This document shows, piece after piece, positions 5,265-57,577 of a stretch of DNA of 64,000 nt. Location: assembly GCF_003260205.1 (NCBI RefSeq), contig NZ_QERF01000001.1, positions 124,001 through 188,000 of the forward strand. Reading direction: 5' to 3'. Below the pieces are notes generated by a model, which was not told the DNA's origin, searched no databases, and saw only the letters and a program-made list of their open reading frames with translations. The stretch comes from Winogradskyella tangerina. GTDB lineage: Bacteria > Bacteroidota > Bacteroidia > Flavobacteriales > Flavobacteriaceae. Positions within the stretch are counted from its first letter, which is position 1, and each line of letters starts with the position of its first letter. The position numbers and the translations under genes are program-made.

Positions 5265-5278
5265 CCAAAATTTTTTTA

Positions 5279-6010
5279 ATGGCTGAAAAAGTAAAACCTT
5301 ATAAAAATAGTGAGGCGTCCAAAAAAGAGCAGATCACGGAAATGTTCGACACCATTTCTAATGAATACGATGGACTCAACCGTGTTATTTCTCTAGGTAT
5401 TGATGTAAAATGGAGACGGAAAGTTGTTAAAATAGTTTCTGAAAAAAAACCTGAAAATATCCTCGATATTGCCACAGGAACTGGTGATCTTGCTATAAAT
5501 CTTACCGTTACTAATGCCAAAGAAATTGTTGGTTTGGATATAAGTAATGGTATGCTTGAAGTAGGACGAAAGAAAATTGCATCTAAAAATTTAGATGACA
5601 CCATTTCAATGGTTGTGGGCGATTCTGAAGATCTTCCTTTTGAAGATAACACCTTCGATGCCATCACTGTGGCCTTTGGCGTTAGAAATTTTGAAAACCT
5701 TGAAAAAGGTCTAGCTGAAATTTTAAGAGTATTGAAACCTGACGGAATTTTCGTGATCCTAGAAACTTCTGTTCCAACAAATCCAATCTACAAGTTTGGT
5801 TATAATATCTACTCGAAAGTGGTATTACCAACGGTAGGAAAATTGTTTTCAAAAGATAAAATTGCGTATAATTACCTCAGCGAATCTGCATCGGTATTTC
5901 CATATGGCGAAGCGTTAAACAATATTTTAAGAAAAATTGGGTTTATTAATGTCGAAGATAAACCACAAACGCTAGGCGTAGCCACCATTTATACCGCATC
6001 TAAAGCCTAA
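5279..6010 (+). CDS. ubiE: Demethylmenaquinone methyltransferase UbiE/MenG
   Basis: A 243-residue class I SAM-dependent methyltransferase for the last step of menaquinone synthesis. The SAM-binding motif I is [14 protein letters not shown] (about residues 62-75), and the family signature [15 protein letters not shown] is present near residue 130. The N-terminal [17 protein letters not shown] is the standard UbiE/Coq5 opening. Bacteroidota use menaquinone, so the MenG role is more likely than ubiquinone synthesis. It is followed by porT after 2 bp, an arrangement I recall from other flavobacteria. Confidence 0.95.
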
Positions 6011-6012
6011 TT

Positions 6013-7450: not shown

Positions 7451-7549
7451 AAAATGTCTTTACATTTGTTAGCATAATTACAAAGTAAACCTTTTTGGAC
7501 TAATTTTTGTTTAAGCAATCCATATCAATAAATCATAGACCTATAAAGC

Positions 7550-10114
7550 TTGCAAGTTCCCTTCACAATACTAAATAAATATCGCAGTATCTTATTCAAG
7601 CTTTGCTTGTTCTTTTCTGTGGTACTTTTAAACTCTTGTGATGTAGTAAAGCGCGTTAAGTCTAACGAGCACCTTATTACCAAAAACACCATTATTGTTG
7701 ATGAAAAGGTCACAAAAGAAGAGCGTGTAAATAATCTAATCATTCAGAAAACTAATTCGGGTATCGATCGTTTTTTGGGGTTTCCTTTGCGGCTTCATGT
7801 CTATAATTTAGCACGCCCAAATATCGATTCCATTCTCGAAGCTAAAGTTTTGAGCGATTCTTCTAAAGTTAAATGGAAATCGAAAGTTTTATCTAGAAAG
7901 CAGTTCGATAGAGAAATTCAATCGCGTAAAAATTTTAATAGTTGGTTAAAGCGTACAGGTGAGGCACCCACAATTCTAGATGAAGATAAAACGGCTAATA
8001 CCGTTCTTAAGCTAAGAAAATATTATTACACCAAGGGTTGGTTCGACAATGAGGTTACTTATGACATTCAAAAAGACAGCACAAAAAGAGCTCAGGTAAC
8101 TTATAATGTTACTCGCAAAGACCCTTATTTTTTAGATTCTATTACTCCGATTATTAGTAGTCCGGCTATAGATTCTTTATACAGTGATTTTAATAAGGGA
8201 TCACTATTAGTGAAAGGCGAACAATACGACGAGCAAAATTATGAGCGCGAGCGCGAACGTATTAATGATTATTTACGAAATCACGGATTCTATTATTTCG
8301 GGCAAGATTACATCAGGTTTGTAACCGACACGATAGGCACCGATCATAAAGTCAATACAGAACTTGTAATTGCAGACCGGGTGATCAGAACCGATGATTC
8401 AACTACTGTTGAGCCTTTCAAAATTTATAAGATCAAGGACGTCAATATTTTTACAGACGATAATTTCGCCAATCAATCTAAAGCTATATCCGACACTACG
8501 GTCTACAAGGACTATTCATTATATAGCAAGGAAAAACTCAGGTTTAGACCCAAAGCATTGACGGATGCCGTTTTTATTAATAAAGGTGATATTTATAGTG
8601 ATATTGCCCGTAGCCGGACTTCGCGATATCTCAACGATCTCCAAATGTTTAGGTACCCTCGAATTGAATACCTCGAAAACAGAGAAGACACCACACTTAC
8701 GGCCAATATTTATCTTGAGCCAAAGAAAAAATATGCATTGAGTCTCGATTTGGATGTCTCTCAAAGTAATATTCAGACCATAGGATTTTCAGTAACTCCG
8801 GGATTAAAGATCAGGAATATTTTTAGAGGTGCCGAAACACTAGAATTAAGTGGAATTGCAGCTATTGGTGCTTCAGAAGACGGAAATGACAATGACGAAA
8901 CGTTTTTCGATATTAACGAGTTTGGTGGCAATATCAGATTAACAATACCTCGGTTATTTACGCCTTTCAATACCGAAAGTATCATTCCGAAATACATGTC
9001 ACCAAGTACTGCCATTAACCTATCGACAACAAGTCAGCAGAACATCGGATTAGACAAGCAAACACTTTCTGGATTATTGAGTTACAACTGGGCACCGAAA
9101 CCAACGGTTACCAACGTGCTCGAATTATTCAATGTGCAGTTTGTAAAAAATCTAAATACTAGCAATTACTTTGGGGTTTATTCTACATCGTATAACCGAC
9201 TTAATGGCATTGCGCAAGATATTGGCTATATTCCTTCTAACGACAACTTAAGCTTTCCTAGTGAAACAGATCAATTTATTAATGATGTACTTACCGAAAA
9301 TACGAGTTTAAGTCCAGGTGATGACGATTTTATAGCGGTTAATAATATTGAAGAGCGAAAACAACGACTTACTGAAAATAACCTCATCTTCTCTTCGAGT
9401 TTTGATTATGTAAAAGACAAGCGAACCAACATTTTTGATAATAGTTTTTCCATTTTCAAATGGCGTGTAGAGTTAGCAGGAAATTTATTGTCTAACCTGT
9501 CAGAATTATTTGGTTCTACGCAAAATGCCGATGGTAATTATGAGGTGTTTGGTGTGGCTTTTTCGCAGTATTTTAAGACTGAGATCGATTATATAAAGTA
9601 TTTTGATATGGGGCAGAAGAATGTTTTTGCCTTTAGAAGTTACGCCGGAATTGCAATTCCGTATGGTAACTCCAATAGTATACCATTTGCAGAAAGTTTC
9701 TTTGCTGGTGGACCAAACGACAACAGAGCATGGACAGCCTATAATCTTGGACCCGGAAGCTCTTCAACCACAAACGAATTTAACGAAGCAAACTTCAAAA
9801 TTCATCTTAGTGCAGAACAGCGTTTTGGGCTGTTTGGCGATCTTAGAGGTGCACTATTTATTGATGCTGGTAATATTTGGAATGTATTAGATAATGTTGA
9901 AGATGATAGAGCGACGTTTACAAATTTCAACTCGCTTCAGGATATAGCCGTTGGATCTGGATTTGGCTTACGTTATGATTTCGATTTCTTCGTCCTCCGT
10001 GTCGATACAGGATTTAAAACTTACGAGCCTTCCTTACCCGAAGGTAATCGATGGTTTAAAAATTACAATTTCAGAAATGCCGTTTATAACATCGGAATTA
10101 ACTATCCGTTCTAA
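7550..10114 (+). CDS. tamL: BamA/TamA-family outer-membrane lipoprotein (TamL-like)
   Basis: An 854-residue Omp85-family protein that combines a lipoprotein signal (LLNSC, Cys30) with POTRA-like repeats in the N-terminal half and a 16-strand-type surface-antigen barrel at the C-terminus, ending GINYPF. A lipidated Omp85 protein is the hallmark of TamL, the Bacteroidota partner of TamB in outer-membrane assembly. The start is TTG, because an in-frame TAA lies 6 bp upstream and no ATG or GTG gives the full signal peptide. The order ubiE-porT-spoU-tamL is, as I recall, shared with Flavobacterium. Function as TamL rather than an accessory BamA is inferred. Confidence 0.82.
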   Translation: MQVPFTILNKYRSILFKLCLFFSVVLLNSCDVVKRVKSNEHLITKNTIIVDEKVTKEERVNNLIIQKTNSGIDRFLGFPLRLHVYNLARPNIDSILEAKVLSDSSKVKWKSKVLSRKQFDREIQSRKNFNSWLKRTGEAPTILDEDKTANTVLKLRKYYYTKGWFDNEVTYDIQKDSTKRAQVTYNVTRKDPYFLDSITPIISSPAIDSLYSDFNKGSLLVKGEQYDEQNYERERERINDYLRNHGFYYFGQDYIRFVTDTIGTDHKVNTELVIADRVIRTDDSTTVEPFKIYKIKDVNIFTDDNFANQSKAISDTTVYKDYSLYSKEKLRFRPKALTDAVFINKGDIYSDIARSRTSRYLNDLQMFRYPRIEYLENREDTTLTANIYLEPKKKYALSLDLDVSQSNIQTIGFSVTPGLKIRNIFRGAETLELSGIAAIGASEDGNDNDETFFDINEFGGNIRLTIPRLFTPFNTESIIPKYMSPSTAINLSTTSQQNIGLDKQTLSGLLSYNWAPKPTVTNVLELFNVQFVKNLNTSNYFGVYSTSYNRLNGIAQDIGYIPSNDNLSFPSETDQFINDVLTENTSLSPGDDDFIAVNNIEERKQRLTENNLIFSSSFDYVKDKRTNIFDNSFSIFKWRVELAGNLLSNLSELFGSTQNADGNYEVFGVAFSQYFKTEIDYIKYFDMGQKNVFAFRSYAGIAIPYGNSNSIPFAESFFAGGPNDNRAWTAYNLGPGSSSTTNEFNEANFKIHLSAEQRFGLFGDLRGALFIDAGNIWNVLDNVEDDRATFTNFNSLQDIAVGSGFGLRYDFDFFVLRVDTGFKTYEPSLPEGNRWFKNYNFRNAVYNIGINYPF

Positions 10115-36700: not shown

Positions 36701-38593
36701 TTAGAACCATCGTTTATACCAATTCATTAAGAAATAAATTGTCCAGATATTATTAGTGTATTCCTCTTTGCCTTGTTTTAAGAGTTCTAGCTGTTCATTG
36801 ACCGTTTTACTATTAAAAAAACCTGTGTCATTATTGAACTGTTTGATGTTGTCTTTTACGGTGTGATAAATAGTTTCATTGGCCCATTCTTTAATTGGTA
36901 AACAGAAGCCCATCTTCTTTCTGTACAATATATCGTGAGGTAATATGCGTTCAAGGGATTTTTTCAGGATATATTTATTTATGCCATTTTTGATTTTATA
37001 TTCACCCGGAATTGCCAAGGCTAGATGTACCATTTCATGATTCAAAAAGGGACTACGTGCTTCAATAGAATTAGCCATTCCAAGTCGATCCGCTCTAAAT
37101 AAAAATCGTTCGGTAATAGCATTTCTGTAGCCTGAATAAGACAACCAATTTATATAATCAAATTTATTTCCATTTAAAAATTGCTCATAGTCCTTTTTAA
37201 GTTCCTTCACATAATTGTAAGAAGAATGGTTTCCTATACTAGTTTTAAACTGATCAGAGATGAGATCAGCTTTTATTCCTTCTTTAAACCCGCCAGCACC
37301 CGGCCAATAAAAATCTTGATTATTCGCAAGTCTATTCGCCATTTCGTGCATTGGTGCACCCTTATTGATCATTTTAGTCACCATAGGAATGATCTCTTTA
37401 AAGAAATGAGGTGCCTTTTCAATAATTTTAAAGTACTTATTTAATTTTACGTACCGCTCGTAACTACTATAACCACTGAATAATTCATCTGGTCCATCAC
37501 CATTGAGAACCACTTTTATGTTTTCTTCACGAGCTAGTTTTGAAATAAAGTAGATGGGTATCGCTGTTGTGTCGGCCTGCGGCTCATCGTAGATCTCAGT
37601 GATCTTCGGAATAAAATCTAGTAGATCATTAGGCGTTACTGTTTTTACAAAATGATTTGTATTAAACATTTTTGAAACCTGCTCGGCATAGGTCAATTCA
37701 TTATAATCTGGTTGCCCTTCAAAACCAACAGTAAATGTTTTAATTTCATGAGCAGTATTTTCTCGCATCAAAGCAACAATGGCAGAAGAATCCACACCAC
37801 CACTTAAGAATGCACCCACGGGTACATCAGAAATCATCCGTGATGCTACTGATTCTTCTAACTTCGAATACACCATATCCGAGAGTTCTTTTTCTGAAGA
37901 AAATTCAAGCGAATTTTGAGTTAGATGCTGATATGGCTCATAGGTTTTAATACCCTTCTTATTCACTACCATATAATGCCCAGGAACAAACTTATGAATG
38001 TCCTTAAACATTGTCTTGGGTGTAAGAACATTATTAAAGGTCAGGAAGTCATAGAGTGCTTCTTCATCAAGTTCTTTTTTAATCCATGGTAATTCGAAGA
38101 TGCCTTTTAATTCTGAAGAAAACACAAATTTACCACCCATGGTAGTGTAGTACAATGGCTTTTTTCCTGAACGATCTCTTGCTAAAATGAGTTCTTCTTT
38201 TACGCCATCCCAAATAGCAAATGCAAACATTCCGTTTAGCTTTTCGATGGCATTAATGCCTAGCTTTCCGTATAATTTTAAAATGGTTTCGGTATCTGAA
38301 GTAGAAAAGAATTTTTCATCATTCAGGTAGGATTTATTCAGAAATTGATAATTAAAAACCTCACCATTATATACAATGGTATTTCTATGATCTATCATCG
38401 GTTGGTGACCAGCATTAGAGAGGTCTAGTATGCTCAGTCTGGTTTGACCAATTCCTAAATTTTTTGCTTCGTTTAGCCACAATCCGCTATCATCTGGACC
38501 ACGATGATTCAGTCTGGTGTTCATTTTGCTGATGGCACCAACTAAGTCTATTTCATTGTCTGAAAGCTCAAAAACTCCATTAATTCCACACAT
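36701..38593 (-). CDS. asnB: Asparagine synthase (glutamine-hydrolysing), AsnB type
   Basis: A 630-residue two-domain enzyme. The N-terminal class II glutaminase domain begins MCGINGVF with the catalytic Cys2 and contains RLNHRGPDDSG and GHQPM. The C-terminal ATP-pyrophosphatase domain has FLSGGVDSSAIVAL (about residues 263-276) and NGDGPDELFSGYSSYERY. Within polysaccharide loci such proteins often amidate a uronic acid or amino-sugar of the glycan; making free asparagine is the alternative. It overlaps the upstream GT4 gene by one base. Confidence 0.92.
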   Translation of the reverse strand: MCGINGVFELSDNEIDLVGAISKMNTRLNHRGPDDSGLWLNEAKNLGIGQTRLSILDLSNAGHQPMIDHRNTIVYNGEVFNYQFLNKSYLNDEKFFSTSDTETILKLYGKLGINAIEKLNGMFAFAIWDGVKEELILARDRSGKKPLYYTTMGGKFVFSSELKGIFELPWIKKELDEEALYDFLTFNNVLTPKTMFKDIHKFVPGHYMVVNKKGIKTYEPYQHLTQNSLEFSSEKELSDMVYSKLEESVASRMISDVPVGAFLSGGVDSSAIVALMRENTAHEIKTFTVGFEGQPDYNELTYAEQVSKMFNTNHFVKTVTPNDLLDFIPKITEIYDEPQADTTAIPIYFISKLAREENIKVVLNGDGPDELFSGYSSYERYVKLNKYFKIIEKAPHFFKEIIPMVTKMINKGAPMHEMANRLANNQDFYWPGAGGFKEGIKADLISDQFKTSIGNHSSYNYVKELKKDYEQFLNGNKFDYINWLSYSGYRNAITERFLFRADRLGMANSIEARSPFLNHEMVHLALAIPGEYKIKNGINKYILKKSLERILPHDILYRKKMGFCLPIKEWANETIYHTVKDNIKQFNNDTGFFNSKTVNEQLELLKQGKEEYTNNIWTIYFLMNWYKRWF

Positions 38594-45138: not shown

Positions 45139-48100
45139 ATGAACAAGATTTTCATGACCTTTGTATTAGCACTACTTTGTTTTAAAGGCATTAGCCAAAC
45201 AACAATTTATACAGAGGATTTTACCAATCAAGTTGGTAAAGGCGCAATTGGCTCTAGTACAAGTAGCCCTACCATCGATCTTTCTGGTGTCGACTGGACT
45301 ATCGACGTTAGCAACGCCACCCTTTCAGCAACAACAGATTATTTTAGTGTAGTTACTGTAAGCGGAAATCAATTACTAGAAGGTAGAGACTTAGACGTAA
45401 GCGCAACATGGTTTTCACCAAATATTGATATTTCAGACTTCACAAATGTTGGCTTTACAATTAATGTTTCGGAATCTAATGGAACAGGTGGAAATAACCT
45501 GGAAAGCACAGATACTGTTCTCATTGAATATCGAATAGATTCGGGAACTTGGACTACGGCCTCAACCAACGGAAGTTTTTCAGACGATTATGATCTTACC
45601 GTAAGTAGTGAGACTGGATTATTAGGCTCAAACTTAGAAATACGAGTAACCATGACCAACAATGGTGGTGGTGAACGTCAACGAATAGATGACATTGAAG
45701 TTACAGGTACTCGTGATTGTAATGTTGCGTATAGTCTACCTTTTAATGAAGGGTTTGAAGGAGGCGTCTTCCCTCCTGAATGCTGGCAAAGTTACAGAGG
45801 AAGTAACGGTTTAGGAACAGTCAATGACTGGACTACCTCAACGCTCGTCTCTAACTCTGGTACAACATCGGCCTTTGTAGAGTTTGAAGTTGTTTCTGGC
45901 GGAAATGCACAAGATTGGCTGGTAACGCCTGCTATTGATCTTGGTACCGCTCAAACCCAGCTACGATTTTTTGCAAGAGAGCAGTTTACAATAGATTTCA
46001 ATACTGAATATTCGATACGAATTTCGCAAACATCTGCTACAGATATTTCAAGTTTTACAACTATTCAAACTTATAACGAATCTCAACTCGGTAATACTTA
46101 CAATGAAAAAACAGTAGATTTATCAGCCTACAGTGGTGTGGTTTACATTGCCTTTGTAATGGAACAAAATGACGGTGACAATTGGTTTCTAGACGATGTT
46201 TCAGTAGTTGAACTTCCTGCTTGTACAATTCCAGACGAAGTTTCAAACGTGACAGTAGGATTTGACGATTCTGTTGTTAACTTGAACTGGGCACTCGGCT
46301 CTTGTTATGATGATATTCTAGTGGTAGCTAAAGAAGGAAGTCCAGTGACCACAACACCAACAGGAGATGGAAGCTCATATACAGCAGATTCAATTTTTGG
46401 TAATGGTACCGAAATCGCTACTGATGAATTCGTAGTATTCAATAGTATTGGTAGTAATGTGGATATTAGTAATGTTTCTGTGGGGAATACTTATCATTTT
46501 TCAATTTTTACCAGAAAGGGGACAACTTGGAGTACGGGAGTTCCAATTAGCATTACCTTAGATTATTGCACCGTTTCTGGCGACACTGCCTTTGCTACGG
46601 CAATTACATTGGTAGATTTTGGGGATATCAACAATATCACTGGTCAAGGTTCTGGATACGACGATTTTACGGCACAATCCACGAGTATTGAAAGAGGTGA
46701 ATCTGAAGACTTAACCGTTAATCTTAATACAGATGGTGATTTTAGAGTGTACAGCTATGCTTGGATTGATTGGAACGCCGACGGAGATTTTGATGATGCT
46801 GGTGAAACTTATGACCTAGGCGAATCTGAAAATACCCCAGATGGCCCAACCTCTAATAGTGCTTTAACGATTACAGCTCCTGTTGATGCCGTTATTGGAG
46901 ATACGAGATTGCGTGTACTTTGCCAGTATTTCGCTACAACAATTCCTACAAATGGTCCATGTGATGGATCAACTGATGGTGAAATTGAAGATTATACCAT
47001 CACTGTTTTACCAGGGATCACTTATGTATACGACGATGGATGGTCACCTGCCGATCCAAATGGTGTTGCTACATTGGCAAACCCTATTCAGGTAATACGT
47101 GGGAATGCGGTTATTTCAACCTCAACCCAATGTGAAAGTGTTGTTGTAGATCCGGCTGCAAGTTTAACGGTCAATACCGGAGTTACTTTAGACATTGCTA
47201 ATAGTCTAGACTTAGAATCAACAAGCATTGCTTTTTCAAGTTTAATTCTCGACGGCACAATTAATGGTACAATTAATTACCTAAGACATGTCAACTCCGC
47301 AAGCGGAAGTGGAACAACAACAGGTAATAACGATCTTATTAGTCCACCGTTACAAGGGCAGACTTTTGGAGAATTTACAAGTGCTAATCCCAACATTTTA
47401 TCGGGTACAATTGGGGGTAGTCCTGCGTTTTTATTTGGCACTTTTGATTCGGCGACAAGTACGTATTTGAATTTTACTCCAGCAAATAACCCAGATCCAT
47501 TAGCCACCGGAATTGGTTATCGCACTGGCTCAACAGATAACGGCACTTATACCTTCACAGGTACCGTTGAAACGGGTGATGTAGAAATTAGTGTAACGAA
47601 TGGAGGCGCTTCCAATTGGAATTTAATAGGAAACCCTTATCCGAGTTATATCAATGTTCAGTCAATATTAAATGAAACCACTAACCGAAATCGTTTTGAT
47701 GAAAATGCAGTCGGAATTTATGGATATGACGGCTCAGCAACCGATGGATGGACCATCTATAATTTAGCCAATACTGATGGTTCTACTATAATTGCACCAG
47801 GGCAAGGCTTTTTTATTGATGCCGAAACATCAGGTACATTTAGATTTACTCCTAGTATGCGAATGACAGGCACTTCAGATGATTTTATTTTAGGCAGAAA
47901 CAGTCAGCCACTCACCTTTTTGAAACTTCAAATAAATGATGGGTCTAATAATTTTCATACCGACTTTTATTTTAACGACAATGCAAGTCTAGCTTTAGAT
48001 GAAGGTTATGACGCTTCAGTTTGGAATAGCACTCCTGCCAGTTTCTCTGTTCACTCTTATTTAGTTGAAAATGATAATGGCAGAGCTATGGCAATTCAGG

Positions 48101-48597
48101 CTTTACACAGTAATGATGTTTCAGACGTTACAATTCCTTTAGGAATAAATGTAAATCCAAATCAAACTGTAGTGTTTAGCATTCAGGAATCTACCTTGCC
48201 AAATGACGTTAATGTTTACTTGGAAGATGTAGTGACCGAAACGACAACGTTGTTGAATGATGAAAATTATGAAGTGGTATTAGATAGTCCTACTATTGAA
48301 AAAGGAAGATTTTATCTAAGGTTTGTCAATCAAACGTTGAGTGTTAATGAAAACACCATGAATGCATTGCAAATTTTCACAGATCAACAGCAACGTTCCT
48401 TGACCGTTAAAGGCCAACTTCAAAGTGAAGCGCAACTCAAACTATATGACCTTCAAGGTAGAGTTGTAAATATTTTTACTTTAAAGGAGGATACCACGCT
48501 TCAAACATTTGATATTTCAGAATTACCATCTGGTATATATGTTGCAGACATTCAGAATCAAAATGCACGTAAAACGCAGAAGATTATTCTGCGATAA
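45139..48597 (+). CDS. T9SS-secreted protein with choice-of-anchor J and GEVED domains
   Basis: A 1152-residue surface or secreted protein with a Sec signal peptide (ends FKGISQ). After an N-terminal beta domain, residues about 195-360 form a choice-of-anchor J/MAM-like module (GFEGGVFPPECW; DGDNWFLDDVSV). Residues about 480-625 carry a GEVED domain (WIDWNADGDFDDAGE; CDGSTDGEIEDYTI). From about 629 to the end is the C-terminal half shared with the next two genes (NLIGNPYPSY; GIYGYDGSATDGW), ending in a type A sorting tail (LYDLQGRVV; SGIYVADI; KIILR). The cargo function is unknown; adhesion is a reasonable guess. Paralogous in its C-terminal half to 48835 and 52084. Confidence 0.85.
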   Translation: MNKIFMTFVLALLCFKGISQTTIYTEDFTNQVGKGAIGSSTSSPTIDLSGVDWTIDVSNATLSATTDYFSVVTVSGNQLLEGRDLDVSATWFSPNIDISDFTNVGFTINVSESNGTGGNNLESTDTVLIEYRIDSGTWTTASTNGSFSDDYDLTVSSETGLLGSNLEIRVTMTNNGGGERQRIDDIEVTGTRDCNVAYSLPFNEGFEGGVFPPECWQSYRGSNGLGTVNDWTTSTLVSNSGTTSAFVEFEVVSGGNAQDWLVTPAIDLGTAQTQLRFFAREQFTIDFNTEYSIRISQTSATDISSFTTIQTYNESQLGNTYNEKTVDLSAYSGVVYIAFVMEQNDGDNWFLDDVSVVELPACTIPDEVSNVTVGFDDSVVNLNWALGSCYDDILVVAKEGSPVTTTPTGDGSSYTADSIFGNGTEIATDEFVVFNSIGSNVDISNVSVGNTYHFSIFTRKGTTWSTGVPISITLDYCTVSGDTAFATAITLVDFGDINNITGQGSGYDDFTAQSTSIERGESEDLTVNLNTDGDFRVYSYAWIDWNADGDFDDAGETYDLGESENTPDGPTSNSALTITAPVDAVIGDTRLRVLCQYFATTIPTNGPCDGSTDGEIEDYTITVLPGITYVYDDGWSPADPNGVATLANPIQVIRGNAVISTSTQCESVVVDPAASLTVNTGVTLDIANSLDLESTSIAFSSLILDGTINGTINYLRHVNSASGSGTTTGNNDLISPPLQGQTFGEFTSANPNILSGTIGGSPAFLFGTFDSATSTYLNFTPANNPDPLATGIGYRTGSTDNGTYTFTGTVETGDVEISVTNGGASNWNLIGNPYPSYINVQSILNETTNRNRFDENAVGIYGYDGSATDGWTIYNLANTDGSTIIAPGQGFFIDAETSGTFRFTPSMRMTGTSDDFILGRNSQPLTFLKLQINDGSNNFHTDFYFNDNASLALDEGYDASVWNSTPASFSVHSYLVENDNGRAMAIQALHSNDVSDVTIPLGINVNPNQTVVFSIQESTLPNDVNVYLEDVVTETTTLLNDENYEVVLDSPTIEKGRFYLRFVNQTLSVNENTMNALQIFTDQQQRSLTVKGQLQSEAQLKLYDLQGRVVNIFTLKEDTTLQTFDISELPSGIYVADIQNQNARKTQKIILR

Positions 48598-48834: not shown

Positions 48835-51800
48835 ATGAAACATTTCTATTCTTTTTTAATGATTTTGTTTTTGACATTTATTTTTAGTTCTGCAGGAATG
48901 TCACAAACTGTAATATTTGATGCGGATTTTTCAAATAACGGTGATGGATTTCCAGATCATACATCATCCTCTCCTCCTGCATCAGGACCGGCCTCAGTGG
49001 GACCTTTTGGGACAGCCCCAAATGCTTGGACTTTATCATATACATCAACTCCGCTTACTGATGGAACCGCCAATAGTTTTAAAGTAGTTAGTGGTGAATT
49101 ACAGAGTGATGATTGGGGTGGACAAGGAATTTTTACAAGTCAGACAATAGATGTTTCTGGAGTTTCTACAGTTGACATTTCAGCAACAGGTGTTAATTCT
49201 GGTGCCAATGATGACGATTTTACATATTTCTACATATTAGATGGTGGAAGTAGGGTAGAAACCGTCATTGGAGTAACCAACAATGGAGATCCTATAAATT
49301 ATTCCATTATGGGCTTAGATGTTTCTGGAGCAACAACATTAGAAGTAGGATTTGAATTTAGTGAAAATGGTAGTGGAGATGGATATGACGTAAGTGAGTT
49401 TACCGTAACCGATACCGGTGGTGGTGGCGCAACCACAAGTGTCCAATTCACCTCAACTTCAGCTTCTGTTTTAGAAAGTGTAGGAACAGTAGATTTAACT
49501 TTAGCCATCACGGATGAGGATGGCTCAAATGCAACGACATGCGATGTTGTAATTATTTCTGGTGATGCAGCGGATGTTGATAGTTATACAACCCAAATGG
49601 TAACCTTCCCAGCCGGAAGTTCTGCCAATCAAACAGTTACAATAACCGTAACCGATGATAGTATTTTTGAAGGTGATGAAACTATTTCTTTCGAAATACA
49701 AAATGTTGCTGGTGGCAATAGTGCTGCCGCTGGAACTGATGATCAGTTTGATTTGACTATCGAAGACAACGACCCCGATCCATCAATAACTATTTTCATT
49801 GAAGATTTTGATGGTACTTTTCCAAATTGGAGTAATGACATTGAATCACAGCTTTTTGTTGATCCAACAACACCTTCTGAAGGATTATTTATTCAGGCGG
49901 CCTCTTCAAATAATGCTAATTTTTCAGGAAATACTGCCTTTGGACGTGATTTGGATGGAGAATCCGGAGAACCATCTTTATCCCCATACACTTTTACATT
50001 CTCTTCAGTAGACGTTTCAGACTACACTTCAATAATGGTAAGTTTCGATTATCATGCATTTGCGAATGCTGAAACTGGTGATTATGAAATAGTAATCGAT
50101 GGTGTAGGACAAGGATCTGTAGAATATTTTAATGACCCTGATACTTCACCTGGTGTGAATGGTACAATAACGATTCCTGTAGCAAATGGCACTAGCACTG
50201 TTGGTCTTATTTTAACTGGAACCCTAAATGGTGGAAGTGACGTTATTGAATTTGATAATTTTAAAATAACAGGAATATTTTCTGGTCTAACTTACTCTGG
50301 AGGTTCTTGGTCGCCAAGTGCTCCTGATGGTTCTACTGGTGCTTCTGATGCCATTATTGTAGATGGTACAGCTGTTTTTGCTGCAGATGCCTCCTTAAAT
50401 GATGTATCTGTTTATCCTGGTGCTGCTTTACAAGTAGATACAGCAGTAACTTTAACCGCTAGTAGTGTTACTTTAGAATCAGAATCTGATAGTTACTCTA
50501 GCTTAATCTTAGACGGTACCATTACTGGAACTGTAAATTACAATAGATCAGTAAATTCGTTTACTGATGATGCAACCAATAACGATAACGATTTGATATC
50601 TGCACCTTTAACTGGGCAAGCATTTAGTTTATTTGATGGTGCAAATACAAATTTATTAGCCTCCACGACGGTTACGACTTTAAGAGCTTTTGCAACATTC
50701 AACAACGATACTGGAGCATATGATAACTTTGACACTACCACTAACGCTGGTACAACATTAGACGCCGCAACTGGTTATAGAACAGCAACGACAGATGGTG
50801 GCACATTAACCTTTACGGGAACTGTAAACACAGGTGATGTCGATAAAAATATTACAATTGGTACAGATGCTACTTTTTCAGAATGGAATTTAATTGGAAA
50901 CCCTTATCCTTCATATGTTGACATACAAGCTTTCTTAGAACACGAAGTAACCACTGGGATTACTAATTTTGACCTTTTAGAAGCTGGATCTGGGATTTAT
51001 GGTTATGATGGAGATGCCTCTGATGGATGGACAGTGATCACCTTGGCAAATGATGATGGTGAATTCTTTGCACCTGGACAAGGATTCTTCGTTGCTGCAA
51101 ACGGAACGGGAACATTAATCGCTGACCACGACATCGAATTTAGAGCATCTATGAGAGCCGCTGGCACCTCTGATGATTTCATAATTGGTAGAAATAGTAG
51201 CCCATTGACATTCCTTAAATTAAATGCTTCAACTATTGATAAAAATTACAGAACTGAGTTTTACTTTAATGAAAATGCAAGTCAAGGACTAGATCAAGGT
51301 TACGATGCAAAATTATGGGGTGGATCTGCTCCAGAATTTGCACTTTACTCTCATTTGGTTCAAAATAATACAGGTTTACCAATGGCTTTACAAGCTTTAA
51401 GCGACACTGATTATAATGATGTAATCATTCCTTTAGGTGTTAATGCTAATGCCGGTGAAGAATTAACCTTCAGTATTACTGAAAACACTTTACCAAGTGA
51501 TATTAACGTCTACTTAGAAGATAATGTAACCAATACTTTTACACTACTTAATGACAGTGATTATATTTTCACACCACTAAATAGTTTGAATGGTACAGGT
51601 CGTTTCTATCTTAGATTCTCAGCAAATGTTCTGTCAATTGATGATAGCGATCTAACTGATATCAGTATTTATAACGATGGTGACAGAGCCATTGTCATTG
51701 CTGGTGAATTGCTTCAGCCTACTACAGCCAAAATGTATGATTTACAAGGCCGTGTAGTAATGACAAAAACTTTAGATATTACTAGTAGAGAACAACGTAT

Positions 51801-51888
51801 TGAAACGAACCAGTTTAGCTCTGGAGTCTATATTATCCAACTGAACAATGAAATTCAAAGTATTTCACAAAAGATCATAATACGCTAA
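48835..51888 (+). CDS. T9SS-secreted protein with Calx-beta domain
   Basis: A 1017-residue protein with a Sec signal peptide (ends SSAGMSQ). After an N-terminal beta domain it has a Calx-beta repeat at about residues 203-318 (SASVLESVGTVDLTLAITDE; DDSIFEGDETISFEI), then a jelly-roll-like module (ITIFIEDFDGTFPNWS; VIEFDNFKITGIF). From about residue 482 to the end is the C-terminal half shared with its two neighbours, closing in a type A sorting tail (MYDLQGRVV; SGVYIIQL; KIIIR). Calx-beta domains bind calcium and occur in adhesins. Own promoter and terminator. Confidence 0.85.
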   Translation: MKHFYSFLMILFLTFIFSSAGMSQTVIFDADFSNNGDGFPDHTSSSPPASGPASVGPFGTAPNAWTLSYTSTPLTDGTANSFKVVSGELQSDDWGGQGIFTSQTIDVSGVSTVDISATGVNSGANDDDFTYFYILDGGSRVETVIGVTNNGDPINYSIMGLDVSGATTLEVGFEFSENGSGDGYDVSEFTVTDTGGGGATTSVQFTSTSASVLESVGTVDLTLAITDEDGSNATTCDVVIISGDAADVDSYTTQMVTFPAGSSANQTVTITVTDDSIFEGDETISFEIQNVAGGNSAAAGTDDQFDLTIEDNDPDPSITIFIEDFDGTFPNWSNDIESQLFVDPTTPSEGLFIQAASSNNANFSGNTAFGRDLDGESGEPSLSPYTFTFSSVDVSDYTSIMVSFDYHAFANAETGDYEIVIDGVGQGSVEYFNDPDTSPGVNGTITIPVANGTSTVGLILTGTLNGGSDVIEFDNFKITGIFSGLTYSGGSWSPSAPDGSTGASDAIIVDGTAVFAADASLNDVSVYPGAALQVDTAVTLTASSVTLESESDSYSSLILDGTITGTVNYNRSVNSFTDDATNNDNDLISAPLTGQAFSLFDGANTNLLASTTVTTLRAFATFNNDTGAYDNFDTTTNAGTTLDAATGYRTATTDGGTLTFTGTVNTGDVDKNITIGTDATFSEWNLIGNPYPSYVDIQAFLEHEVTTGITNFDLLEAGSGIYGYDGDASDGWTVITLANDDGEFFAPGQGFFVAANGTGTLIADHDIEFRASMRAAGTSDDFIIGRNSSPLTFLKLNASTIDKNYRTEFYFNENASQGLDQGYDAKLWGGSAPEFALYSHLVQNNTGLPMALQALSDTDYNDVIIPLGVNANAGEELTFSITENTLPSDINVYLEDNVTNTFTLLNDSDYIFTPLNSLNGTGRFYLRFSANVLSIDDSDLTDISIYNDGDRAIVIAGELLQPTTAKMYDLQGRVVMTKTLDITSREQRIETNQFSSGVYIIQLNNEIQSISQKIIIR

Positions 51889-52083: not shown

Positions 52084-54327
52084 ATGAGACAGTTCTACAT
52101 TCTTTTTATTTTACTTTTTACAGCACCATTTATTGGTTTAAGCCAAACTTTAACAACAATTTCCGAGGACAACGCAAGTAACTACGGAGGCACATGGAAT
52201 AACGGTGACAACAATGGCACAGGTTTTCAGCCTTGGGTACTCACTGATAATCCAAACGGAGGTTTTGCAGGTCGTTATGTCGGTTCAACAGCTATTGGAG
52301 ATCCAGCATTTGGATTATTTTCAGGAAATAATGCTGCCGCTGAATCTTTGGCGCAACGCGGTTTTAGCCAAAGTATGCAGCCCGGAGATATATTCTCTGT
52401 GGTAATTGGACATACATCAACAATAAATGGAGAACTTGGACTAGTTTTATTAGATGGTAGTACTGTTGTTTTAACGCTAAAGTACGTTCAATTTGCGGCT
52501 AGTTGGGTTTTAAACGATGGTGGTAGCGATTTTGCAATCGCCCAAGGATTTAGTGCAAATACAAGTCTAACTTTTACATTTACCTACGAAGGAAACAATC
52601 AATATTCTTATTCTTTTGGTAGTGCATCAGGAAGTAATTTCACCTTCAATGGTACTGTTACTAACATTGATGGTGTAAGATTTTTTGATATTAATCAAGG
52701 GCCTGGTGAAAACTTTGGTATTAATAATCTGAGTATCCAGCGTCCGACTTTTACAACTATTGCAAATGGTAGTTTCAATGATGGAGCGACTTGGGAAAAT
52801 GGTGATATTCCAGACGGTCAAGGCCGAGTAATTATTAATCATGATGTAACTGTAGCTGAAGATCAAAATTTAGTGGCAACAGATTTAGAATTAGGAGGCT
52901 CAGGTAGTTTAACAATGAATTCAGTTAGCAACAATTATTCAAGTTTAATTGTAGATAATGTATCTGGAAGCGGAACTGTAAGTTACAATCGATTTGTAAA
53001 TTCTAGTGCTAATGGTAATGATCTAATTTCATCACCATTACCTGGTGAAGACTGGGCCGATTTTTTACTTTCAGGTACTAACGAAGTCGATTTATTAGAC
53101 GATGGAGGAGTGCCAACTAAAACTTATGCCTTTGCGCCATTTGACAAATCTGCTTCTGATTATGTCAATTTCGATGAAAACACTACTGCATCATTAGGTT
53201 TAGGTACTGGATATCGAGTTGCCACTGATGCCGGTACAACCTTAAGATTTACCGGTACACCATTAAATGGAACTCAATCCGTTAATATAGTTGATACTGG
53301 TAGTAGTTTTGCTGACTGGAATCTTATTGGAAATCCATACCCTTCCTATGTTAGTATGCTAGATTTCTTAAATCATGAAGTTGATACGGGTGTTAGAAAC
53401 ATAGACTTATTGGAGAGTGCATCTGGAATTTATGGTTATGATGGCGATGCTTCCGACGGCTGGACAGTGATTACTTTAGCCAATGCTGGCGCTCAACTAT
53501 TTGCTCCTGGTCAAGGCTTCTTCGTAGCTGCGGATGGTTCAGGAACGCTGATTGCCGATTACGACCTTGAGTTTACGAACGCTATGCGTTCTACAGGTAG
53601 TAGCGATGACTTTATTTTAGGAAGAAATAGCAGTAGTAACTTAACATTCTCTAAAATCAATATTAGTACGGCTACGAGTTCATATAACACAGAAGTTTAC
53701 TTCGACGCCAATGCAACTTTAGGTTTAGACCCTGGATATGATGCTGCAATTTTTGGTGGCTCTGCACCAGCTTTCTCAATTTACTCACATCTAGTTCAAG
53801 ATAATACAGGTATTCCTATTGCATTACAAGCCGTTGGTCTAACAGACGTAACCAATGTAACTATCCCATTGGGCGTCAATTCCAATGCAGGAGAAGAACT
53901 TACTTTCGACATGTCTTTCTTTTCACTTCCGGCTAATGTAGAAGTCTATCTTGATGATAATGTTGAAAGCACATCAACATTATTAAATTCGTCAGATTAT
54001 GTTATAACGCCATCATCGAATTTGAATGGCACCGGACGATTTTTCCTGAGATTTGTTGATAATTCATTATCTACACCAGAGAATTCCCTTGAAAGTTTGT
54101 CAATTTATACAGATCAAGGTAGTCGATCAATTCATGTAGCGGGTCAAATATTAGACAACACTATTGCCAATGTTTATGACATCCAAGGTCGATTAATATT
54201 GAGTAAAGCATTAGACAGCGACCTAAGATCACAAAGTATTGATGCACAGTCATTAGGTACTGGTATTTACGTGGTAGAATTGTCTAATGGAAACCAAAAG
54301 AAAGTAGAGAAAATAATTTTAAAATAG
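52084..54327 (+). CDS. T9SS-secreted protein, short member of the tandem family
   Basis: A 747-residue protein with a Sec signal peptide (ends FIGLSQ) and a single N-terminal beta-sandwich of about 200 residues (NNGTGFQPWVLTDNPNGGFA; YVGSTAIGDPAFGLF). The remaining 525 residues are the shared C-terminal half (NLIGNPYPSY; GIYGYDGDASDGWTVITLAN; APGQGFFVAADGSGTL), ending in a type A sorting tail (VYDIQGRLIL; GIYVVEL; KIILK). It is closest in the shared region to the 48835 protein. The three genes look like successive duplications with swapped N-terminal modules. Confidence 0.85.
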   Translation: MRQFYILFILLFTAPFIGLSQTLTTISEDNASNYGGTWNNGDNNGTGFQPWVLTDNPNGGFAGRYVGSTAIGDPAFGLFSGNNAAAESLAQRGFSQSMQPGDIFSVVIGHTSTINGELGLVLLDGSTVVLTLKYVQFAASWVLNDGGSDFAIAQGFSANTSLTFTFTYEGNNQYSYSFGSASGSNFTFNGTVTNIDGVRFFDINQGPGENFGINNLSIQRPTFTTIANGSFNDGATWENGDIPDGQGRVIINHDVTVAEDQNLVATDLELGGSGSLTMNSVSNNYSSLIVDNVSGSGTVSYNRFVNSSANGNDLISSPLPGEDWADFLLSGTNEVDLLDDGGVPTKTYAFAPFDKSASDYVNFDENTTASLGLGTGYRVATDAGTTLRFTGTPLNGTQSVNIVDTGSSFADWNLIGNPYPSYVSMLDFLNHEVDTGVRNIDLLESASGIYGYDGDASDGWTVITLANAGAQLFAPGQGFFVAADGSGTLIADYDLEFTNAMRSTGSSDDFILGRNSSSNLTFSKINISTATSSYNTEVYFDANATLGLDPGYDAAIFGGSAPAFSIYSHLVQDNTGIPIALQAVGLTDVTNVTIPLGVNSNAGEELTFDMSFFSLPANVEVYLDDNVESTSTLLNSSDYVITPSSNLNGTGRFFLRFVDNSLSTPENSLESLSIYTDQGSRSIHVAGQILDNTIANVYDIQGRLILSKALDSDLRSQSIDAQSLGTGIYVVELSNGNQKKVEKIILK

Positions 54328-54347
54328 AATCAAATAATTATATGAAT

Positions 54348-54415
54348 AATTATTGAGTGGGTTTGCTAGCGGACCTGTTTTAGTCAAAATCGTGGCGTCA
54401 ACTCACTCAATAATT
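54348..54415. repeat. Long inverted repeat after the third T9SS gene
   Basis: AATTATTGAGTGGGTT (54348-54363) pairs with AACTCACTCAATAATT (54400-54415), a 16-bp stem with one G-U pair and a 36-nt loop. It has no T tract. It may serve as a factor-dependent stop, a processing site or a structured RNA upstream of the peptide cassette. Confidence 0.5.
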
Positions 54416-54476
54416 TATAAACAATTTATTTTTAATAAACCTTATTATATTTATATCGTTAAATAAATAATTTTAT

Positions 54477-54484
54477 TATTTTTG
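54477..54484 (+). promoter_or_regulatory. Putative -7 box for the peptide-kinase cassette
   Basis: TATTTTTG, matching TAnnTTTG, 20 bp before the ATG of the small peptide gene. No standard -33 TTG at proper spacing. Confidence 0.5.
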
Positions 54485-54504
54485 AACCAAATCTAGGCTT
54501 GGCC

Positions 54505-54666
54505 ATGAAACACAACAACACCACTGATAAACTAACACGCAAAGATGCTATTAAGAAAATGGGCAAGTATGCTGCATTGACTGCAGTAGGTACTTTCGTG
54601 ATTTTAAATCCACTTAAAGCACAATCGTCTTCACCTCCAGATCCGGGAGGGAATCCATTTGATTAA
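54505..54666 (+). CDS. Short signal-peptide-like precursor (53 residues)
   Basis: A 53-residue peptide starting MKHNN, with a basic n-region (KLTRKDAIKKMGK), a hydrophobic core (YAALTAVGTFVIL), a likely cleavage site after LKA and a 14-residue mature tail: QSSSPPDPGGNPFD. The opening resembles the twin-basic start of Tat-like leaders but with only one Arg. It lies between a -7 box and an HPr-kinase-like gene 13 bp downstream, an arrangement typical of modified-peptide precursors. The three adjacent serines are possible phosphorylation sites for that kinase. I recall similar Pro/Gly-ended mini-proteins in Bacteroidota, but no studied function. Confidence 0.65.
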   Translation: MKHNNTTDKLTRKDAIKKMGKYAALTAVGTFVILNPLKAQSSSPPDPGGNPFD

Positions 54667-54679
54667 TTCTTAATTTATT

Positions 54680-55813
54680 TTGAATAACCATTTAGCACCA
54701 ACATATCAAGTTCAGTTCGGTGGTTATTGGATATTGTGGTATTCCTCATCAAATAATTATAGTGTTGTTGACAACGAATTCAAAATGCTATTGGAAGCAT
54801 ATTTAAATGCAACTTCTGTTGAAGCCTTTTCCTTAGAATTACCTGAATTCGACACCGTCTCGGATCCTCGTAATATTTCAGAAAGCCTGCATGTATATTT
54901 AGAACAGTGTAATCTGCAAGATTCGGAAAAGAAAGACCTAAACTTTGAATTTGAAAATTCAAAAGCTAAAATCAAGAGATTTTATAGCATTCGAGATCAA
55001 ATCATTCAAATTAACTACGACTCGGAACTCGTAGAAAAAACGATTCACCCTTCAATTGCCTATTTAGAACGATCTGAAATTCAACCAACCAATGCAATTT
55101 TTGATGTTTATTTAGATAAAGAACACCTTTGTCTATTTAAGAATAATAAACTTATAACTGCGGTTCCAAAGCGCCAATACCATTTATTACAGGGTAAATT
55201 CATAATGAATCTTTTATCCTTAATTCATAATAAGAAGGAAAGTGAATGGTTAGGGACTTTTCACGGGTCAACAATTTCAAATGGTAACAGCTCAATCTTA
55301 CTAGTTGGTGCCTCGGGTAAAGGAAAAAGTACCCTATGTGCGTTACTTTCTGTCCATGGTTTTGAACTGGTTGCAGATGATGTTTCACCAATGTTATCTG
55401 AAGATGGAAACATCTATTATAACCCTTCAGCAATTTCGATTAAAGAGGGCTCTTTTGATATTTTAAATCCAATCATCGCTCAATTTGATCAACTGCCAGA
55501 AACAGTTTTCAATAAGACTAAAGGAAAACTCAAATATCTCCCTTGTAAACAACCTTCAAACATCAGCTATCCTTGCAAAGCTATCGTAATGGTTAATTAT
55601 GAAAAAAGTGCTGAAACTGTTTTAGAATCAATCACAGTAAAAGAACTTTTGGAAACCTTAATTCCAGAATCCTGGATATCACATCGTCCACAACATTCTA
55701 AACAATTTTTAGATTGGTTAAAAAGTGTCTACTTTTATAAACTAACGTACAGTGAAACTGAATCTGTTATTGACAAAATGGTTTCCCTTTTTGAAGAATC
55801 AGATCGCAATTAG
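54680..55813 (+). CDS. HPr-kinase-like protein with PqqD/RRE-like N-terminus
   Basis: A 377-residue protein with a TTG start 13 bp after the peptide gene. Residues 8-80 (YWILWYSSSNNYSVVDNEF; SVEAFSLEL; SESLHVYLEQC) have the strand-strand-three-helix look of a PqqD-like RiPP recognition element. The C-terminal half is HprK-like: HGSTIS, P-loop LLVGASGKGKSTL (about residues 207-219) and, 14 residues later, the Mg-binding VADD (231-234). HPr-kinase homologues phosphorylate serine; relatives of this type modify lasso peptides. True HPr kinase is unlikely, since the N-terminal domain and context differ. The fusion suggests it binds and phosphorylates the peptide upstream. Confidence 0.72.
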   Translation: MNNHLAPTYQVQFGGYWILWYSSSNNYSVVDNEFKMLLEAYLNATSVEAFSLELPEFDTVSDPRNISESLHVYLEQCNLQDSEKKDLNFEFENSKAKIKRFYSIRDQIIQINYDSELVEKTIHPSIAYLERSEIQPTNAIFDVYLDKEHLCLFKNNKLITAVPKRQYHLLQGKFIMNLLSLIHNKKESEWLGTFHGSTISNGNSSILLVGASGKGKSTLCALLSVHGFELVADDVSPMLSEDGNIYYNPSAISIKEGSFDILNPIIAQFDQLPETVFNKTKGKLKYLPCKQPSNISYPCKAIVMVNYEKSAETVLESITVKELLETLIPESWISHRPQHSKQFLDWLKSVYFYKLTYSETESVIDKMVSLFEESDRN

Positions 55814-55847
55814 TTTTGTTTTTACCTTCAGTAATTAAAAACACAAA

Positions 55848-56909
55848 ATGGCTAATCTAGCTACTATATACCAGCATATTGCCGATATCCTTAGTTTCGA
55901 AAATTCTTCGAGTGCACTGGAATCAAAACTCAGTGATTCAAAATTTAACTGGGATGATATTGTTGTTGAAGGAAGCAGGCATTTAATGCTCCCTGCCATT
56001 TATTGTAGGTTGAAGCAAAAAGAATTGACACATCTTTTACCCATTGACCTTAAAGACTACTTAAAAGAAATTACACAACTTAATAAGGATAGAAACCTTG
56101 CTATTATTCGCCAGATTAAAGAGGTATCCGAGTTGTTTAATAATCATCTAATTGACTACGTATTTATTAAAGGTACAGCATTGCTAATGTCTGAAACATA
56201 TGGCGATATCTCTGAACGAATGCTAAATGATATTGATATTTTAGTAAATACAAATCATTTAAAAGAATCCTTTGAATTACTAATTAAAGAGGGCTATTAC
56301 CCTTCTAAGCAGACGCTAAAAGAAATCCATTTTGAACATAGGCATTTACCCAGACTAAAAACCGATCAGTTTATTTGTGCCATAGAATTGCATGGCAAGC
56401 TTTTTAAAAAAAATAATCACTTATCCATAGAAGAAGTATTGTCTCAAAAGGAGCGTATTAATAAGGTTTTCGTACCGTCTAAAAGGCATCTTATTGAACA
56501 CAATATTCTTAATTATCAAATTAACGATAATGGTTATTTTTTCAATGCAATTAGTTTCAGATCTGCGTTCGATACAGTGTCACTTTTACAATCTGAAGGC
56601 TTATTTTCAGATATTAATTCAAATAAATACACAAAAAGATACTTTAACCTAATCGCCTTATTCTTTGAGGATATATCGGCTAGGCATATCAAAACCAACC
56701 AAACCTTCATTACTACATTTTATCGTTTCAAATTGAAACATATTAGGTTTTATAAAATTTGGCATCGATTTTTGTCGTTCATTCATTTTTTTGGTGTTGT
56801 ATTGGGTAGACTCCCTCATTTCTTCACTAATAGCGCATATAGAGCCGCACTTTTAAAGGATAGAAAACGTATTTTCGGTCATTTTAAGTCTGTTTTCGGA
56901 AATTCTTAA
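55848..56909 (+). CDS. Nucleotidyltransferase family protein (NTP_transf_5 type)
   Basis: A 353-residue protein of the uncharacterised nucleotidyltransferase family. The catalytic pattern is FIKGTALLM (about residues 106-114), Arg124, then LNDIDILV with Asp128 and Asp130, and the third acidic residue in AIELHGKL (Glu180). The C-terminal 100 residues are basic and aromatic, with a hydrophobic stretch near residues 310-325 that could contact membrane. It follows the kinase gene by 34 bp. Members of this family accompany HprK-like and PqqD-like genes in polysaccharide or peptide-modification loci, so it may add a nucleotide or sugar-phosphate to the peptide. Confidence 0.8.
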   Translation: MANLATIYQHIADILSFENSSSALESKLSDSKFNWDDIVVEGSRHLMLPAIYCRLKQKELTHLLPIDLKDYLKEITQLNKDRNLAIIRQIKEVSELFNNHLIDYVFIKGTALLMSETYGDISERMLNDIDILVNTNHLKESFELLIKEGYYPSKQTLKEIHFEHRHLPRLKTDQFICAIELHGKLFKKNNHLSIEEVLSQKERINKVFVPSKRHLIEHNILNYQINDNGYFFNAISFRSAFDTVSLLQSEGLFSDINSNKYTKRYFNLIALFFEDISARHIKTNQTFITTFYRFKLKHIRFYKIWHRFLSFIHFFGVVLGRLPHFFTNSAYRAALLKDRKRIFGHFKSVFGNS

Positions 56910-57001
56910 AGACCTAAAACAAAATTCAATAAATAACTTTACTCCATTATTTGTTTTATAAACCATAAAGTTTAACTTTGATAATCAAAATAGCACGTTT
57001 A

Positions 57002-57577
57002 ATGAGAAAATTAGTTTTACTTTTAACTTTATTATTGGCGTTTTCATTTAATTCAAATGGACAAGCCAGTAGAAGCGACAAGGAGTGGTTCGCAAGCGTT
57101 GGTCTCAACGCGATTAATAGTCAAGGAACGCGATCTCCGGTAGGCAAAATGGATGAATGGGCTATTAATATCCCCATTTCACTTGCAGTAGAAGTTGCTT
57201 GGACTTCTGGCCTATCTATCGAACAGTCGTTTACTATTAATTCCTTTTCAGAAGGTGACATCATTGATAATGGTGTTTTAAGAGAAGATTTTACATACTT
57301 TTCATTCGATACACATGCCAAATATTATTTTGGTAAGCATATTTTCCCTCAAGTAGATTGGATTGATTTTTATGGTAATGCCGGAGTTGGATTTTTTAAT
57401 ATTGATGAAACAAACGTCTCGCTTAATTTAGGTGGTGGTGTATTGTTTTGGCTCAATAGAAGACAAACCATTGGTATCAGAGCACAGGTAATTGGTAAAT
57501 TTGCTTTAGACCATTCTGAAAGCGGATTTGACAATAACCATTTCCAAACCCATCTTCAGGCGATATTTGCATTATAA
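57002..57577 (+). CDS. Outer-membrane beta-barrel protein, hypothetical
   Basis: From ATG at 57002 this is a 191-residue protein with a Sec signal (LVLLLTLLLAFSF, ends SNGQA) and eight predicted strands, including YFSFDTHAKYYFGKHIFP and a final HFQTHLQAIFAL. A TTG 24 bp upstream would add eight residues; the ATG gives a cleaner signal peptide. It lies 92 bp after the peptide-kinase cassette with no terminator between, so co-transcription is possible. Function unknown. Confidence 0.65.
   Translation: MRKLVLLLTLLLAFSFNSNGQASRSDKEWFASVGLNAINSQGTRSPVGKMDEWAINIPISLAVEVAWTSGLSIEQSFTINSFSEGDIIDNGVLREDFTYFSFDTHAKYYFGKHIFPQVDWIDFYGNAGVGFFNIDETNVSLNLGGGVLFWLNRRQTIGIRAQVIGKFALDHSESGFDNNHFQTHLQAIFAL

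Follow-up and report, generated by a model that had tools for sequence, protein, structure and literature searches.

What does a flavobacterium make with a signal-like protein of 53 residues, an HprK-like kinase and a nucleotidyltransferase that are encoded one behind the other? The question is raised by a locus of Winogradskyella tangerina (contig NZ_QERF01000001.1), which was analyzed within a stretch of 64,000 nucleotides (“the window”; all coordinates are positions within it). The answer that we favor, with confidence slightly better than even, is a pathway resembling that of the linear polyphosphorylated peptides (LPPs), in which the kinase is fused to a recognition element (RRE) for ribosomally synthesized and post-translationally modified peptides (RiPPs). 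This pathway would phosphorylate, and perhaps glycosylate or nucleotidylate, a Sec-exported peptide that partners RemA/RemZ-like surface proteins of the type IX secretion system (T9SS). Gene content, RRE fold, enzyme families, conservation and the linkage to T9SS cargo come from sequence and prediction; the individual reactions, the way out of the cell and the function of the peptide are what we infer from them.

A Conserved Cassette of Precursor, Kinase and Nucleotidyltransferase

The putative precursor gene (54505–54666, + strand; ATG at 54505) encodes leader or signal-like residues 1–39 and a tail, residues 40–53, of the sequence QSSSPPDPGGNPFD; the predicted mature tail comprises the 14 residues from Gln40 onward (54622–54663, +), with the cleavage site placed by the Bacteroidetes Q-rule. 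After a gap of 13 bp follows the gene of the kinase (54680–55813, +; 377 residues, TTG start), with the motifs GASGKGKST (P-loop codons 55307–55333) and VADD, and then that of an NTP_transf_5 nucleotidyltransferase (55848–56909, +; 353 residues), with KGT..R..DID and ELH and a PF14907 match of 109.9 bits (cut-off 31.2). All three genes are present with the features ascribed to them in an earlier reading of the DNA letters (“the sequence-only reading”).

The own genome and those of the same genus hold 30 kinase loci (genome G029 has two), and in all 30 the three genes stand together, with the small open reading frame (ORF) just upstream and the nucleotidyltransferase just downstream of the kinase. 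Two of these loci have a disrupted kinase frame, one in two pieces (L025) and one with an internal stop (L026), and the kinase alignment (A1) is built from the other 28. The leader is under purifying selection: the ratio of nonsynonymous to synonymous polymorphism (pN/pS) is 0.105 for 30 leader-region codons in 29 sequences, whereas 60 codons that surround the P-loop of the kinase give 0.245 in this set of loci. Judged by these ratios the small ORF encodes a protein under selection, and because the arrangement recurs in every locus and the leader is so constrained, the cassette is more than a product of chance. Among 79 named loci, which lean towards close kin since they are the best of 452 relatives, the kinase lies directly downstream of the precursor in 71 and the nucleotidyltransferase comes next in 70 of the 71 (BLAST), so that the expected conservation of the small ORF beside homologous kinases is borne out.

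The nucleotidyltransferase gene is the sole PF14907 match in its own genome, and PF14907 is found in 24 of 24 kinase genomes of at least 90% completeness versus none of 24 kinase-less genomes, a hand-picked and non-random choice among those lacking a strong kinase match. A sequence search found no solved relative of this enzyme. It is followed by an outer-membrane beta-barrel protein in all 70 named loci that have both kinase and nucleotidyltransferase; in the window this conserved last gene of the neighborhood lies at 56978–57577 (+; 199 residues; OMP_b-brl 25.1 bits, under the cut-off of 28.7). In one locus (L057/L117, G114:C14, ~1270–3310), the neighbor of the kinase resembles, on visual inspection, a sugar-phosphate nucleotidyltransferase (MAAGSGSRYGKL) and not NTP_transf_5.

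The Kinase and Its Predicted Recognition Element

An AlphaFold2 model of the whole kinase, calculated from 28 sequences, has a mean confidence score (pLDDT) of 90.1. Residues 85–377 match phosphoenolpyruvate carboxykinase (PEPCK; Z 13.0, root-mean-square deviation (rmsd) 5.5, 279 residues aligned), and residues 188–377 match HPr kinase 1ko7 (Z 12.8, rmsd 2.7, 130 aligned). The profile scores are 22.2 bits for Hpr_kinase_C of Pfam (below the cut-off of 33.3) and 63.2 bits, E 2e-17, for HprK_rel_A (TIGR04352; below the curated cut-off of 200). According to the model, this part of the kinase is an HPr-kinase/PEPCK fold.

Residues 1–83 (54680–54928, +) were also predicted alone with AlphaFold2 (pLDDT 87.8) and form a b3a3 winged fold. 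Its best structural matches are lasso B1 proteins, with 6jx3 (Z 7.4, rmsd 2.5, 76 aligned) followed by 5v1u (Z 6.9, rmsd 2.8, 76 aligned) and 5v1v (Z 6.6, rmsd 2.8, 77 aligned); TigE, a sactipeptide enzyme and MccB come after these, and all Z scores are below 8. The top 14 matches are all RiPP-pathway proteins. Sequence comparison gave no PqqD match (Pfam) in the kinase, and a profile search of solved structures returned weak, unrelated matches only (best E 0.49). The predicted fold thus provides good grounds for regarding the kinase N-terminus as an RRE, which upholds by fold, with no Pfam PqqD match, what the sequence-only reading had called PqqD/RRE-like.

The Precursor and Its Tail

A pattern search of the loci yielded 101 distinct precursors (some motif counts below refer to 108). 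Their leader is highly conserved and their tail has a median length of 14 residues. Most of the invariant alignment columns belong to the leader and the hydrophobic segment, not to the tail; Q40 and S43 are nearly invariant in 45 aligned precursors. Tails contain Ser or Thr in 99 of the 101 precursors, which agrees with the suggestion that the peptide holds a modifiable residue, and the motif S-x0-2-P in 96; GG occurs in 88 and DPG in 70. By analogy with known peptide kinases, Ser43, which stands before Pro, is the likeliest phosphate acceptor. The pair A-Q is found near the predicted cleavage site in 91 of 108 precursors, and signal peptidase I of Bacteroidetes mostly exposes a Gln that turns into pyroglutamate (PMC5837995, PMC10653852).

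Other assignments of the peptide were rejected. The leader motif T-R-x resembles a twin-arginine (Tat) signal, but the position behind the Arg never holds a second Arg: it is occupied by K in 102 of 108 precursors, by N in 5 and by Q in 1. Thioether or lanthionine chemistry is at odds with the occurrence of Cys in only 1 of 101 tails, and a C-terminal Ser acceptor of the kind found in paeninodin with a final Ser in only 10 of 101.

The two tails without Ser or Thr are those of L055, which ends at KAQE, and of L083 in genome G341, which reads AQYPPDPWG. The latter (also L121; G341:C2, ~666610) lies behind a gene for the module-bearing cargo described below, in a genome that is 89% complete and in which no kinase was found; it is possible that it represents a natural loss of the modification. 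Some precursors (L035, L037, L043, and L079) have long tails of ~46–57 residues that are rich in Ser, Thr and Asn or carry KPG repeats. Second precursor copies stand a few kb from the first in L095, L149, L105, L109, and L115, and each is preceded by a module cargo gene, apart from one of the two copies in L105. Near a lone precursor (L122, G182:C1), five successive ORFs of 119 residues form an evenly spaced tandem array (2080–4003).

Linkage to Type IX Secretion Cargo

The gene directly upstream of the precursor (52084–54327, +) encodes a T9SS cargo protein. Type-A sorting domains score above the cut-off of 23 in the upstream cargo (TIGR04183, 32.8 bits for this protein, and 38.2 bits), and its C-terminal module (~52984–54324) matches the module profile with E 2.6e-174. 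The upstream cargo usually shares this conserved module of ~430 residues, sorting domain included. The own genome has six module cargo genes (507–580 bits; the next gene scores 114), three in the window and three elsewhere, and one precursor. The six vary in their other domains (Calx-beta, GEVED, fn3, sortilin-like, M14 carboxypeptidase, glucose/sorbosone dehydrogenase (GSDH)). Because one C-terminal module is common to such different proteins, module cargo looks like a display class.

In 76 of the 79 named precursor loci, the first gene upstream of the precursor encodes cargo (BLAST). Searches with hidden Markov models, whose neighborhood counts differ slightly from those of BLAST, placed module cargo at most 1.2 kb upstream of 78 of 82 precursors in the named loci and a kinase at most 0.6 kb downstream of 69. 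In regions from a sample of 299 Flavobacteriaceae genomes (236 genera), which were picked for containing a kinase or precursor match (L092–L130), cargo lies upstream of 31 and a kinase downstream of 24 of 38 precursors; among the 14 copies without an adjacent kinase, a class that includes one locus (L116, genome G063) where kinase and nucleotidyltransferase follow the precursor in swapped order, nine still stand behind a cargo gene. The separation is greatest in two genomes of one genus (G440 and G653), which have six precursors each, all 12 behind a module cargo gene and one of them as the second of a tandem pair. Each genome has one kinase, beside an NTP_transf_5-like gene and on another contig than the precursors. 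Since precursors and enzymes are on separate contigs, the kinase, if it acts on these precursors, would have to act in trans, and it is with the cargo that the peptide is associated.

Gene order therefore suggests that the precursor belongs with the T9SS cargo class. It also casts doubt on the proposal, made in the sequence-only reading, of a self-contained system: in both samples, precursors are found behind cargo more often than before a kinase, and the enzymes of G440 and G653 are on another contig than the six precursors. As a whole, that reading stands for the cassette, the RRE fold and the conservation of the small ORF, is doubtful for self-containment, and does not stand for an undescribed kind of product. 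A literature search, with subscription journals mostly outside it, found no reported link between such peptides and T9SS among the entries listed.

Distribution

By protein search, 29 of 60 genomes have the kinase: the own one and 28 of the 36 congeneric ones. The 23 genomes that represent other families of the order gave no match. In the family sample, 44 kinase matches were obtained, of which 15 weak ones (E 1.6e-9 or worse) were dropped (threshold E < 1e-40), and a module cargo class was called strong at E <= 1e-44. Kinase, precursor and strong module cargo are present in 29, 32, and 33 of the 299 genomes, respectively; all 29 kinase genomes also have strong cargo, and 28 of them have the precursor (Fisher P < 1e-33 for both, values that are inflated by kinship). 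The picture is the same by genus, with kinase in 23, precursor in 24 and strong cargo in 25 of the 236, and with 23 genera sharing kinase and cargo and 22 sharing kinase and precursor. Among the 249 well-assembled genomes (completeness of 90% or more, contamination of 5% or less), 24 have the kinase, and these are also the 24 with strong cargo; the precursor is present in all of them and in G353 (25).

G107 has a kinase without a precursor match, and the kinase match starts 27 bases from a contig end; G333 (82% complete) and G341 have precursor and strong cargo and no kinase match. G180, which is 99% complete and has no kinase, falls near the strong-cargo line with 148 bits over 333 positions, and G219, a fragment with a high score per residue, would raise the strong-cargo genomes to 34. 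In a sample of 395 genomes from the phylum, the precursor was found in five, each a member of the Flavobacteriaceae, and these five are also the ones with the full-length kinase. The kinase profile matched 185 of the 395 at E <= 1e-5; among the matches listed outside those five genomes, the alignments are short and mostly cover the P-loop region (best E 3.1e-12).

Proposed Mechanism and Alternatives

In the cytoplasm, the RRE would bind the conserved leader, I-T-R-K-E-A-I-K-K-M-G-K-Y-A-A, as its predicted fold suggests. By analogy with lasso kinases and LppK, the HprK-like domain is expected to phosphorylate the tail Ser before Pro, and the NTP_transf_5 enzyme might then add a sugar or nucleotide to the Ser phosphate. 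Sec and signal peptidase I, to judge from the signal-like leader, would export the peptide and expose Gln40, giving pyroGlu-SSSPPDPGGNPFD. Outside, the decorated tail would be a partner of module-bearing type-A surface proteins of the T9SS, for which docking, anchoring or assembly is the likeliest role.

Several points weigh against this reading. In the family sample, 7 of 38 precursor copies have no module cargo upstream (one copy borders a contig end), three of the own genome's six module cargo genes are without a precursor match downstream, and 8 of 36 congeneric genomes lack a kinase match. The Foldseek match of the RRE is weak, with a best E of 0.26 and RiPP proteins in the first four rows, after which unrelated chains are mixed in. 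The cargo cut-off was set after the scores had been seen, the cargo profile was built from precursor-adjacent genes, and related genomes are not independent. The YxxP(xV) motif of LPP and lasso leaders is missing here ([YW]xxP occurs anywhere in 1 of 108 precursors), and the nucleotidyltransferase step is weakly supported even in the LPP relative, because LppN appeared inactive in the published heterologous host (PMC13381572).

The best of the rival explanations, which we nevertheless consider improbable, is a free, secreted, linear phosphopeptide RiPP that acts as a signal or antimicrobial, with the cargo link reduced to regional synteny or co-expression. It would fit enzymes of the same kinds as in LPPs and in a lasso cluster of genome G304, and it would fit tails of varying length and precursors that are partly tandem, but it leaves unexplained why the dispersed precursors of G440 and G653 follow module cargo away from the enzymes, why most tails share one form with GG and DPG, and why the conserved block consists of cargo, precursor, kinase, nucleotidyltransferase and beta-barrel protein without an ABC exporter. 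Slightly less probable is a small protein whose hydrophobic segment is retained, anchoring it in the membrane, and that escorts module cargo in the periplasm, with phosphorylation as a regulatory switch. The concentration of invariant columns in leader and hydrophobic segment would then be accounted for, and a single peptide could serve several cargo proteins; the A-Q of the Bacteroidetes signal peptidase site, present in 91 of 108 precursors as in Q-rule substrates (PMC5837995), argues for cleavage instead. Least likely, that the enzyme pair modifies another target, either the cargo itself or a polysaccharide intermediate of the neighboring locus, and that the small ORF is an accessory, agrees with a flippase and Wzy_C at ~29–44 kb and with the kinase-less G333 and G341, both incomplete, yet conflicts with a kinase that begins with a precursor-binding fold and with the finding that the sole full-length tail without Ser/Thr (L083) sits in a genome without a detected kinase.

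The phosphorylated, cargo-partnering peptide can be taken one step further, although only tentatively: a RiPP-type peptide might be a dedicated part of the T9SS display class, with one RRE-kinase/nucleotidyltransferase pair decorating tiny exported peptides that anchor, link or even act as sortase acceptor for all module cargo. If this is true, it is a RiPP pathway whose product serves protein sorting and is not a toxin or signal. As the linkage ties an enzyme set similar to that of LPPs to one partner class, the T9SS surface proteins, the role of this set becomes directly testable in culturable marine flavobacteria. A peptide partner would, moreover, add a new type of accessory to the T9SS.

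Further Features of the Window

Upstream of the cassette, two other cargo genes with the same C-terminal module encode proteins with a Calx-beta domain (48835–51888, +; assigned by Pfam, TIGR and module profile) and a GEVED domain (45139–48597, +; PF18962 38.5 bits, cut-off 27; module profile). The polysaccharide locus at ~29–44 kb, of which ten genes were scanned, contains glycosyltransferases, Wzy_C, a flippase, a sulfotransferase and an Asn-synthase. The latter (36701–38593, −) is best described as an asparagine synthase (479.3 bits, above the cut-off); it scores 477.8 bits against the model for the XrtA/PEP-CTERM amidotransferase, under the cut-off of 816.9.

A −7 box had been read before each cassette gene. 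On the + strand of 54328–56910, TAnnTTTG occurs only at 54477, where it forms the possible Bacteroidota −7 element TATTTTTG (54477–54484, +) that begins 28 bp before the precursor start, and at 55811, over the kinase stop codon; none precedes the kinase, and with two occurrences versus 1.5 expected from shuffles, such boxes are at chance level.

Comparison With Known Systems

The sequence-only reading knew of no product of this composition. One was, in fact, published in 2026: LPPs of Bacillota are linear polyphosphorylated peptides made with an RRE, an HprK-like kinase and an NTP transferase and without a cyclase, where LppK attaches several phosphates to one residue, Ser3 of the linear core AQSNWK; according to the authors, what LPPs and paeninodins do biologically is unknown (PMC13381572). 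The locus described here shares with LPPs the RRE, the HprK-like kinase, the NTP transferase, a linear peptide, a putatively modified Ser after A-Q, surroundings of polysaccharide genes and the lack of a cyclase. The likeness in the NTP transferase is one of enzyme class, PF14907 being assigned to the protein here and not to LppN. The RRE is discrete in LPP clusters and fused to the kinase here, with no separate RRE gene in the block, which is the range that was searched for one. Neither an archaeal-type SpI peptidase nor an MsbA-like transporter is present in the conserved block (genes further out are partly annotated, and no genome-wide search was made), the leader is Sec-signal-like, and the precursor is linked to T9SS cargo.

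In lasso peptide pathways, HprK-like kinases phosphorylate a Ser of the precursor, and the nucleotidyltransferase of pseudomycoidin adds hexoses to the phosphate (PMC8498205). Paeninodin and pseudomycoidin thus resemble the present system in combining an HprK-like kinase with a nucleotidyltransferase, and differ in that no B2 or cyclase lies beside the genes here and that the paeninodin acceptor is the last residue. Indeed, the lasso B2 leader peptidase (PF13471) has no match in the own genome, and no macrolactam cyclase is found in the cassette block, in line with the non-lasso, cyclase-free system that had been proposed; the Asn-synthase of the polysaccharide locus was considered as a lasso cyclase and rejected, as it scores 266.3 of the 525 bits required and sits among polysaccharide genes. 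The G304 lasso cluster (L128, G304:C2:435000–450000, 761–8493) offers a direct comparison. It encodes a cyclase (409 of 525 bits), B1, B2, an ABC transporter, an HprK-like kinase and an NTP_transf_5 protein; the nucleotidyltransferase is likewise PF14907, B1 is a PqqD protein, and the kinase, of 296 residues, is ~80 shorter than the one here. Because these ~80 extra residues match the size of an RRE, the kinase here amounts to a fusion of B1 with K, with no B2, C, or D alongside.

On the cargo side, the closest known proteins are RemA, the gliding adhesin of Flavobacterium johnsoniae, and its homolog RemZ, both type-A T9SS substrates (PMC10994853). Their C-terminal ~370 residues (PDB 8gl6 and 8gl8) match the cargo module with 127 and 106 bits (E 7.6e-36 and 1.4e-29), compared with 507–580 bits for the own genome's six such genes, and the accessible part of PMC10994853 mentions no peptide or kinase partner of RemA or RemZ. 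Type-A cargo is known to be linked to lipopolysaccharide and type-B cargo to bind PorP-like proteins (PMC9143113, PMC10994853). The type-B pair SprB/SprF likewise joins a class of cargo to a dedicated partner at the surface, but there the partner is an outer-membrane beta-barrel and the cargo type B, and here it would be a putatively modified peptide of ~14 residues and the cargo type A (PMC9143113). Taken by its gene content, the system is neither a lasso pathway nor a strict LPP pathway; it appears as a variant of LPP/lasso-type tailoring with a new partner.

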